Positions 22,901 to 25,900 of a DNA stretch of 64,000 nucleotides are shown one piece after another (the stretch's first letter is position 1; each line of letters begins with the position of its first letter). The translations under genes and the position numbers were made by a program. Under the pieces are notes generated by a model that saw only the letters and a program-made list of their open reading frames with translations, was not told the origin of the DNA and did no database searches. The DNA is from Protonemura montana (Eukaryota; Arthropoda; Insecta; Plecoptera; Nemouridae), in the NCBI GenBank assembly GCA_947568835.1, contig OX387603.1, positions 19,864,651 through 19,928,650 of the forward strand, given 5' to 3'.

Positions 22901-25900
22901 TGGAAGAAATAGTAGTTTGCAAGTGACAACAATGAAAGCACGTACAACAGACACATCAACAGCTCGATAGAGTGAGTCGGGTGGGGCGACAAGAGAGATA
23001 CGGGGTGTGTTAGAGAGACTTACACACAATTTAAAGCGACAGTGGGTGACATCGAATCTAGGGTACCCTATTGCATAGATAATGGACAGATCGAACGGAA
23101 AGAATTGCCGATAGTTAGCCCCGTAACGGTTGTATCTAGTGAGAAGGTGGTCATTTAAACGCAAAGAAATTGCATGATATTTGTATTTATCTAGAGTATT
23201 GTTTATTTTTAGAGAAAATTTTAGTCTTGTGCTTTTCTTATTATTGATTTTTGATGTAGGGAAGAGATTTCCATGACAAGGCTTGTGGCAAACTTGTTTA
23301 GGAATTTAGTAAGTGTTATTAAGCATTAATAGCATATTTAAGTATTGAGCAAAGAGAGTTGAGTTAGCCAAGAAAGAATTTAGTTAATGCTCCCAAAATA
23401 TTCCATTCTGAATGAAAAATGCCAAGCCAGCATATTCAACCAAAATTTGAAAAAAATTTGTTGGGAAATATGTTACGATAGAAATGTAAGGTAGATTTTT
23501 TACTACCAATGAGCAAAAAATGCGGCAGGTAGCTCAGGCTTTAAACACGTTTATTTCCTGCCGAATGATCCGTCTATTACTGTGCAAATACTGTACATTG
23601 TTACAATACAGTACGAATATTTCTGATTGGTTGTGCGCAATGCCGTCGAACTCACCGTGATTTCCAGGAGTGTCATTTATGTGTAAGTTGTTGTTGATGT
23701 TGTCGTCAAATAAGCGAGATGAAGCCATGACCATCAAAAACTCCGTCAAACATTCTGGCCAATTCTCTGTTACTACGTTACTAATTGCAAACGGGTTTTT
23801 TGTTGTTGAATTTTTATAGTGATTCACTGAAATGTTCCATTTGAGATTACGTGTATCTTTATGTCTAGAGAACTTCAATAATTTAAAACATATTTTTAAA
23901 AGTAAGTGCGTGTCTGTCAAACAAAATTATGGAGCCTTTTAACAGAATCTTTTAATACAATTAAAGTTTACCATTAACTTTTATTTAATTGTTTTCAATA
24001 ATTTGATATCATTGATACAAGAAAATCATGGCTATTTTGCAGCATTAAGTGTAGTATTGTTTTCCGTAAGTCTTGTTAAATGATTTTGGTGCGAGTTAAA
24101 TATAATTTTAACCATTTTCATTTTAAATACCCGTTCCAACCAGAATGTCCGACGAAGGGAGAGGAAAGTAGAAGGGTTCAACCAGGTCGGTTAACTTGCC
24201 TGAACAGTAGCATTAGGCCTTGGACGAAGCTGCGGAAGTTGTTATGCCTTGTAATTGCTCCTTCGGGATCCAGCGCAATGTTACCAAATACCTACGGTGA
24301 CGACGTTGTGATAATTAGTCAATCCAATGCTACGGTGTGCTACCAACCGCTATAGCAGCTACCATTACCAGTACGATATACGATTTTATCACTACGGGGT
24401 GGCCATCCTGTGAGTAGTAGTAGTACCGAACCGAAAGAACGATTATTACCAGCTAAGAACGTAAACTACCCATCAAACATAGAAGACACATCACGATTAT
24501 GTATATGTATACCCAACATAGAGACAGACAACCATGTACACTGTTTTTATACTCTAGCAGCAAACCAACTAGAGCTATCGTCAGCTAGCATGCCAACACT
24601 ACTGTCGACCTAACCCTCGGAACTAGCTTTCCCGCAGGAGAAAGGATGGGTAGGTGTTATTTTTAGCAGGGGTTGCCTGAAAGTTGTCTGAAATATGCAG
24701 CCATGAGACTGTATACACATGAAATGCTGAATTATTTGAATATTAATGCTACTGAAAATATAGCATTGATAAAACTCACAAAATGTAAAAAATCTTAATT
24801 TGTATGGAAAATACTTGGAAATGTTTTCTAGTGACCTCTATGTGATAGCTTTGGTTTTTTTTTGCGTGTCATTCGTTGTGCTACCGTAGTGATGTACGTA
24901 ATTTCTACAATGTGTCTATATCGTGCGCTAGGTAAAGACGAATGCTGTGGCCGAACAGGGGTGGTATGGGGTGGGGAATAGGGGTGCAAGTTAGTCCCGA
25001 GGTTTTCGTCGGCCGGGTTTTGTTTTTCGCTCGAGCCCGGCCACTCACCGGAATAGGAGTAAAACAGCACCGAAGAAAGTCTGAAAGTTGTTATGTCGAT
25101 TGAGTGCAGAATCAGGGTCAAACTTGATGTTTCCGAATACCTTGAAACCGACCGCAATGGAATGATATTTTTGCAAGATTGTCAATCCGAATGGAGAATT
25201 AGTCTAGTTTATTAATCATCAGCACTCGGAAAGTAACCTAGAGAAAATACGCTAATGAATTATTATTAATGCTAATTGCGAAAGGTGCCGTTGTGAAATA
25301 CCTATATTGCTATGATTTTTTGTGAGTGTCCCGTGACAGCGATGACAGCGTCTTTCCTTGCTAAAGTGTTCATAAAGTACATGGTTAACGTTTGCCCATG
25401 TCTGCCAAAAATTCTCAAAAATCACAAAGTCGTTGAATCTTGCACCGTCGTTTTGCCAAAAAACTACAAACTAGTATTCTATTTCTATTTTCAAAAATAT
25501 CTTATGGCTATCTACGACATGTATTACCTGAAATAAAGTTACGTTACCACAGATAAACGTTACTAAGCTCTGCTCCGCTATGCTTTTGCTGTTATTATGA
25601 CAGATTTCAATCATATTCGTGAAAGTTATCAGCTCAACTACAATTTTGAAGCCAAAAAGCATGTTAAGTCATCCAAAGATGCTCAGCTCTCAAAACTGAA
25701 AATGTGTTTGAAATCTGTAATAAAAACCAGCAAATCTACCCAGCTTTTTTATATTGAACGTTATTATTCTTCGATGGCTCATGCACCATGGTAAAAACTT
25801 CTAAAATACAGGAAAAGGCACATTCCCACACATTTGTAGTAAAGTTTCAAAGTACCTATTCTATTTTGATCGATTTTAACCAAGTTATTATTTCTCTCTA

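Follow-up and report, generated by a model that had tools for sequence, protein, structure and literature searches.

Two adjacent exons of the CaV2 (cacophony) gene of the stonefly Protonemura montana, here designated A and B, very probably represent an ancient mutually exclusive pair of arthropod CaV2 channels, which would tune the outer pore of repeat IV beside a selectivity filter that remains unchanged. CaV2 channels are the trigger of transmitter release at many synapses, and most arthropods are thought to possess a single CaV2 gene. The pair is a real and conserved one of a known type in an important channel; the isoform sequences as such are already present in public annotation and hence not new.

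The exons were studied in a window of 64,000 nucleotides, i.e. the whole stretch of DNA analyzed, which holds most or all of the arthropod CaV2 (cacophony) alpha-1 gene on its minus strand. The gene encodes four repeats with the Glu filter motifs TMEGW, TGEDW, TGEGW and TGEAW, which are found in exons e6, e13, e19 and e27 of our model, respectively. The beta-binding AID of the I-II linker, containing QQLER, is encoded by exon 46327-46212. Among the proteins retrieved, insect CaV2 channels were the nearest relatives of the II-III and C-terminal parts, and both the nearest proteins and the structure matches of the repeat-IV pore placed the channel closer to CaV2 than to Cav1, Cav3 or Nav. Open frames located further 3' of the exon at 20279-20173 look like additional C-terminal coding sequence. 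The first coding intron (59102-54596, minus strand) looks like a U12-type AT-AC intron, starting with atatccttt and ending with ttccttaaccactttgcac. Near-repeated peptides, e.g. WSPWCSSTGVGYV and PWCSSPGVGYV, are encoded by open frames at the two window ends (~1486-896 and 59672-59409) and probably belong to an interspersed repeat. The features relevant for the exon pair are the following:

20173-59212, minus strand: body of the CaV2 (cacophony) alpha-1 gene, from exon 1 (MAPNPQ...) at 59212-59103 to the C-terminal exon at 20279-20173
26301-26366, minus strand: upstream constant exon encoding S5 of repeat IV, ends with ...IIGMQ, donor gtaata
25049-25140, minus strand: exon A encoding the S5 end, the ECL-IV turret and the P1 helix of repeat IV; 92 bp, phase 0 to 2, ends in a split Arg codon
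24292-25048, minus strand: intron between A and B; 757 nt, too long for simple steric exclusion
24200-24291, minus strand: exon B, the repeat-IV alternative to A; 92 bp, phase 0 to 2, split Arg codon, GC donor (AG/gcaagt)
22286-22436, minus strand: downstream constant exon encoding the repeat-IV filter TGEAW, P2 and the start of S6, begins with CATGEAW

An earlier note, made from the letters of this DNA, had described the pair with the same coordinates, length and phases, and our analysis reproduced all of them exactly, between the exons 26366-26301 and 22436-22286. Exon A is bordered by tttcaag/GTATTC...TATTCCG/gtgagt and exon B by accgtag/GTATTT...TGTTCAG/gcaagt; the GC donor of the latter (24199-24200) is a feature absent from that note. 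The two exons agree in 17 of the 30 residues encoded by complete codons, where the note had counted 15 or more identical positions, and in the common split Arg codon (55 of 92 bases). They retrieve each other by tblastn within the window (E 1.7e-9 and 1.6e-9), and in 100,000 residue shuffles the number of matches never exceeded 11. Hence, A and B are adjacent, homologous, of equal length and identical phases and carry valid splice sites, as is characteristic of mutually exclusive exons. Their assignment to the end of S5, the turret and the pore helix of domain IV ahead of CATGEAW, likewise proposed before, also holds. The products differ in the ECL-IV turret and in the first half of P1 (...KFDPDSALN... 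in A versus ...ALDPEGAIT... in B); about a dozen residues distinguish them, while the filter exon encoding TGEAW, P2 and the start of S6 is common to both.

With either A or B alone, the frame stays open from the S5 exon into the filter exon. Inclusion of both exons or of neither shifts the frame, which then soon runs into stops, with the stop of the A+B combination falling early, inside B. This agrees with the conclusion already drawn in the earlier note that the exons must exclude each other since both together break the frame. The reading frame would thus enforce one exon per transcript, as double or zero inclusion leads to a premature stop and hence probably to nonsense-mediated decay (NMD). 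The early stop inside B also bears on a different idea, namely that A is a regulatory (poison) exon, whose main role is to lower the CaV2 level through A+B inclusion and NMD and which yields no functional isoform. The donor of A, which ranks first among 33 donors of the gene (see below), would suit such a role as well. We consider this idea extremely unlikely. Included singly, A keeps the reading frame, and the peptide it encodes is conserved; A is the only form used in many annotated full-length proteins, and the mosquito proteins examined that carry A derive from a separate paralogue of their own. Exclusive use of A or B in functional channels is the reading followed below.

How might the choice between A and B be made? 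To rank the splice sites, a score was built from the own sites of the CaV2 gene (33 ranked). The donor of A took rank 1 and its acceptor rank 17, while donor and acceptor of B took ranks 21 and 32, respectively. Two other explanations of exclusivity appear unlikely: no U12-type letters are present at the splice sites of A or B, and the gap of 757 nt speaks against steric incompatibility. Competing RNA structures of the introns were not favored either, as the best duplexes among the three introns of this one genome were no stronger than those of shuffled sequences (7, 3 and 11 of 11 shuffles, respectively, were as low). Counts of splicing motifs in the introns offered no lead either. In the absence of U12-type letters, a short gap and intron pairing above the level of shuffles, a regulated choice added to the frame constraint would probably be made by trans-acting factors acting on the unequal splice sites. 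Because A has the top-scoring donor of the gene and B combines a GC donor with a very weak acceptor, B, which is the usual form in insect cac, probably requires activation in neurons, or A requires repression.

To assess the distribution of both forms, a large protein collection was searched three times, considering the best 120 of 179, 1042 and 5330 matches, respectively, and 335 proteins were taken from the matches listed. Proteins of this collection are clustered at 90%, so that isoforms of one gene merge. Forms were told apart by an A-versus-B score derived from a profile of upstream and downstream exons whose order in the genome is known. This profile split 90 hand-picked arthropod rows into 43 and 47, with 84 of the 90 lying beyond 3 points from zero. 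The six rows within 3 points of zero came from Prorops, Allacma, Ixodes (two), Microctonus and Contarinia, and the Allacma row is probably a Cav1 channel. Among the matches listed, A-type proteins occurred in insects (the cockroach Blattella, two Timema stick insects, the mayfly Cloeon, moths, an ant and wasps), including Diptera (mosquitoes, a sand fly, a biting midge, tephritid flies, a blowfly and six Drosophila species), as well as in crustaceans (decapods, mantis shrimp, Artemia, Daphnia and a copepod). B-type proteins were likewise found among the matches listed in insects, crustaceans and chelicerates, including beetles, bugs, a louse, thrips and Limulus. That A was not seen in beetles, bugs and lice is no evidence of its loss, because isoforms of a gene collapse into the 90% clusters. 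Exon A of the window encodes a peptide that is 90% identical to that of Anopheles A and 96% identical to that of Blattella over the 26 residues present in the latter model; the hymenopteran A has drifted (SNDPGTAIDDHNNF). The annotated proteins thus provide the comparison across insect and crustacean cac genes that the earlier note had asked for: proteins of both groups carry A or B.

Both repeat-IV copies stand one after the other in six of the 335 proteins, always with A preceding B. These proteins derive from Timema bartmani, T. genevievae, Choristoneura, Polistes, Daphnia magna and the mite Leptotrombidium. They look like errors of gene prediction, in which truncated exons or extra letters rescue the frame, and as such they reveal the genomic order, A before B. 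As two ticks (Ixodes) are assigned to the A-type at a marginal score of +1.6, the case for A in chelicerates rests on the model from the mite Leptotrombidium. As to flies, A-type proteins with the fly signature came from the six Drosophila species, tephritids and the blowfly (best 120 of 5330 matches, in 90% clusters, so that absence means little). For four of the six A-bearing Drosophila species, membership in the subgenus Drosophila was confirmed, and both pore forms occur in this subgenus. The remark in the earlier note that this pair was not known from Drosophila cac was therefore incomplete, given the A-type annotation in the six Drosophila species and in other flies.

Do A and B arise from one gene? 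Outside the exon and gaps apart, the A and B proteins of the ant Cardiocondyla displayed no mismatch at 1837 aligned positions. The A protein of the moth Choristoneura and the A+B model of the same genus showed none at 1778 positions, and A and B of the crayfish Cherax differed at 6 of 739 positions. By this measure, A and B of Cardiocondyla, Choristoneura and Cherax are products of one gene, represented by database isoforms, many of which are predicted. The same applies to A of D. virilis and B of D. palustris, two species of one subgenus, with a single difference at 357 positions outside the exon. From such database isoforms, many of them predictions, we also infer that both forms are expressed, and isoforms of one gene carrying either A or B indirectly favor the presence of one exon per mature transcript.

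A different picture emerged for mosquitoes. Here, A and B proteins were only 72.6% identical over 1695 positions in Aedes albopictus and 72.8% identical over 1567 positions in Anopheles funestus, and the possibility that they are isoforms of one gene in these species was rejected in favor of paralogues on the basis of this identity outside the exon. When compared between Aedes and Anopheles, identity was 94% for A and, in the longest stretch aligned, 90% for B. One repeat-II signature was present in 7 of 7 A-type mosquito proteins examined and another one in 12 of 12 B-type proteins. Mosquitoes are accordingly seen, from alignment, to have two CaV2 (cacophony) paralogues, which are ~73% identical outside the exon, and the A and B forms seem to be divided between these two genes among the proteins examined. 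As the A-type mosquito proteins examined all lie on one paralogue, an entire gene can use the A form. In the scale insect Parthenolecanium, two CaV2 proteins likewise occur, which are 84% identical and both B-type.

The earlier note had described the pair as one Cav1-like (A) and one Cav2-like (B) version, from which an L-type-like pore in a CaV2 channel would follow for A. Indeed, the last 13 residues of A match Cav1 (FQTFPQAVLLLFR) at 11 positions. Over the whole exon (31 residues), however, A was 61% and 55% identical to Cav1.2 and Cav1.3, respectively, in comparison to 65% and 68% for CaV2.2 and CaV2.3. Among invertebrate CaV2 channels, identity of A was 74% for nematode and bryozoan, 68% for cuttlefish and only 58% for leech and clam. 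B reached 74% each with CaV2.2 and CaV2.3 and 45-55% with Cav1.3 and Cav1.2. When solved structures were searched with the repeat-IV pore containing A, human CaV2.3 was the top match (222.3 bits), and CaV2.2 (221.1 bits) also ranked above Cav1.3 (213.6 bits); with B, CaV2.2 came first (218.5 bits), followed by CaV2.3 (212.8 bits). The A-versus-B score put CaV2.3 on the A side (+5.0), and CaV2.2 (-13.4), Cav1.2 (-7.6) and Cav1.3 (-4.7) on the B side. Moreover, A carries the CaV2 markers FGN and RHNNF rather than FGK and RNNNF. Whole-exon identities and the A/B axis speak against a Cav1 origin of exon A, and an L-type-like pore is very unlikely. A and B are both of the CaV2 type, and the label "Cav1-like versus Cav2-like", which is not supported over the whole exon, should be dropped. 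The second half of the proposal, according to which B is the usual form of insect cac, is supported.

The start of P1 provides a further distinction: A has FFG like mammalian CaV2.3, while B has Gln like CaV2.1 and CaV2.2. The residues that are diagnostic for A versus B are not universal. By small margins, the split between A and B resembles the difference among vertebrate CaV2 paralogues more than that between Cav1 and CaV2, which we regard as a resemblance and not as descent. The likeness is weak because B is equally identical to CaV2.2 and CaV2.3, A differs by three points in this respect, and the two structure scores of A are ~1 bit apart.

How old is the pair? Within-class identity among the six species with known exon order (Timema counted once, window included) was 0.682. 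In a permutation based on this order, the observed labelling ranked 2 of 32, one other labelling being as good or better. In a tree of 78 exon peptides (31 columns), the A rows grouped together with one nematode row inside, and the B rows did not form one clade. Clustering of the labels exceeded that in 500 of 500 shuffles, although neither A nor B was a supported clade; holding A or B together as a clade was not rejected (p 0.374 and 0.405). Constraining A and B of one lineage to join cost 7.5 to 36 log units. AU tests of this constraint were usable for six lineages and did not reject it at the 0.05 level, with p values of 0.053 for the window, 0.069 for Lepidoptera, 0.070 for Malacostraca, 0.08 for Daphnia, 0.174 for higher flies and 0.289 for Hymenoptera. 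The mosquito constraint was left out, as identical rows were present on both sides and two genes are involved. A tree-based proof of a single origin was set aside, 31 columns being too few.

The exon B donor offers a further trait. In the Daphnia magna model, LLFR is followed by Q-V, the reading that AGG-CAA-GT gives and that the window would give. The model of the tick Haemaphysalis joins ...QGLMLL directly to CATGEAW. In exon B of the window, the last GT (CT/GTTCAG) lies 6 bases inside the exon, and a predictor accepting only GT would make exactly the error seen in the Haemaphysalis model. Of 324 filter junctions among the proteins retrieved, 4 lack LFR ahead of the filter; these are the B exons of Daphnia, tick and mite (3) and a gecko model with an extra insert. 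These gene models suggest that the GC donor at exon B is common to insect, crustacean and at least one chelicerate.

These data have to be weighed against an alternative, in which lineage-specific exon duplication recurred, or A and B underwent gene conversion, and converged on similar forms. It gains from the AU tests, which on 31 columns do not reject joining of A and B in any of the six lineages, and from the drift of the hymenopteran A and the marginal score of A in ticks. On the other hand, the best tree pairs the A of no species with its own B and keeps the A rows together apart from one nematode intruder, the six two-exon models and the window all have the same order, and the GC donor of B appears to be shared by the window, Daphnia and tick. 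We therefore regard recurrent duplication or conversion as improbable. A single ancient origin of the pair, albeit not proven, is the simplest reading of these sequences.

For Drosophila cac, the excerpts consulted from two 2025 papers count just two mutually exclusive exon pairs in D. melanogaster, IS4 and I-II (PMC11828482; PMC12370356). As presented there, IS4A/IS4B and I-IIA/I-IIB resemble A/B in being tandem exclusive exons of equal length in the same gene, but they encode parts of the voltage sensor and of the beta-binding linker, whereas A/B belongs to the pore of repeat IV. Both fly pairs are also present on the minus strand of the window (IS4: 52894-52794/51288-51188; I-II: 47238-47123/46327-46212). 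The first exon of the window I-II pair lacks QxxER and the second one has QQLER. Another tandem pair (33338-33228 and 31214-31104, minus strand; 111 bp, phase 0-0) encodes S1-S2 of repeat IV with 17 of 37 residues identical. Two comparable forms of this segment exist in several insects and crustaceans, and both are found under one locus tag in Gonioctena. The number of tandem exon pairs in one CaV2 gene thereby rises to four, the others being IS4, I-II and the pore pair.

In the part of a 2022 survey available to us, three tandem-duplicated exon events are listed for D. melanogaster cac, of which only the beta-binding one is described (PMC9741552). Higher-fly proteins in which the IV S1-S2 segment was caught showed only one form of it. 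As both pore forms occur in the subgenus Drosophila, the third event might be the pore pair, as far as the sequences and that part of the survey allow. The abstract of Peixoto et al. 1997 is also said to mention three alternatively spliced regions in cacophony; hence, the pore pair may have been seen in flies. In open-licence PMC full text, we noticed no description of the pore pair as an ancient arthropod feature, of its location in the pore or of the GC donor.

Related arrangements are known from other channels, as far as the consulted passages of the respective papers go. CACNA1F and CACNA1S each keep one of two ancestral alternative exons (PMC9741552). Alternatives are thereby split between paralogues, as appears to be the case for mosquito CaV2, but this concerns other exons in vertebrate Cav1. 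In CaV3, an exon 12a/12b turret switch, widespread in protostomes, alters permeation and ion preference beside an unchanged filter (PMC9694082). Like A/B, it is an alternative exon for the S5-P1 turret adjoining the unchanged filter. According to the same source, however, exon 12 resides in domain II and encodes a cysteine-rich loop and a lysine salt-bridged to the filter, whereas A/B resides in domain IV and has no cysteines and near-equal turrets. A selectivity switch of the exon-12 type was therefore rejected for A/B on account of domain IV and missing cysteines; a works-like relation is possible. NALCN has alternative pores through exon 15 and exon 31 (PMC6259924). Here, too, duplicated pore exons yield two pores from one gene, but by that account the filter residues of NALCN change, whereas the filter exon next to A/B is constant.

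What would the exchange do to the pore? Ziconotide contacts two ECL-IV aspartates of human CaV2.2, Asp1628 and Asp1629, and Glu1659 on P2-IV is named in the same passage (PMC10761187). The two aspartates align to exon positions 9-10, and Glu1659 aligns in H-E after TGEAW, which checks the numbering. A and B differ little at these contact positions (PD versus PE). A relevance for toxin sensitivity, which the earlier note had considered possible, is plausible in that the exon spans the ECL-IV aspartates contacting ziconotide in CaV2.2. In an excerpt on CaV2.3, a different part of ECL-IV, which follows the filter, is in contact with voltage sensor III, and its alteration shifted activation by ~5 mV (PMC9889812). 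The ziconotide contacts, this ECL-IV effect and the exon-12 pair of CaV3 lead us to expect that A and B channels differ in block, unitary permeation or gating. The exchange would leave the Glu selectivity ring and Ca2+ selectivity intact and would tune the outer vestibule and the way P1 packs behind the filter, thereby affecting unitary permeation, block by divalent ions or peptides and possibly gating. One gene would thus be able to produce outer-pore variants of a kind that is distributed among paralogues in vertebrates, and in mosquitoes the two forms seem to have been transferred to two genes.

A more far-reaching reading, which we put forward tentatively and regard as possible rather than probable, is that arthropods have kept a switch between a CaV2.3-like (A) and a CaV2.2-like (B) form since their common ancestor, with the conserved GC donor of B as the regulated step and distribution to two genes in mosquitoes, and that A and B channels differ in block by peptide toxins and divalent ions and in unitary current. 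If this is true, work on B-form channels covers only half of the native presynaptic channel population. A and B provide a natural pair of channels for testing how Ca2+ permeation and block depend on the P1 helix and the turret beside an identical filter, and their apparent division between two mosquito genes represents a second natural experiment. With an old exon choice at the mouth of the pore, outside the two pairs studied in flies, transmitter release and sensitivity to venom peptides would depend on splicing.
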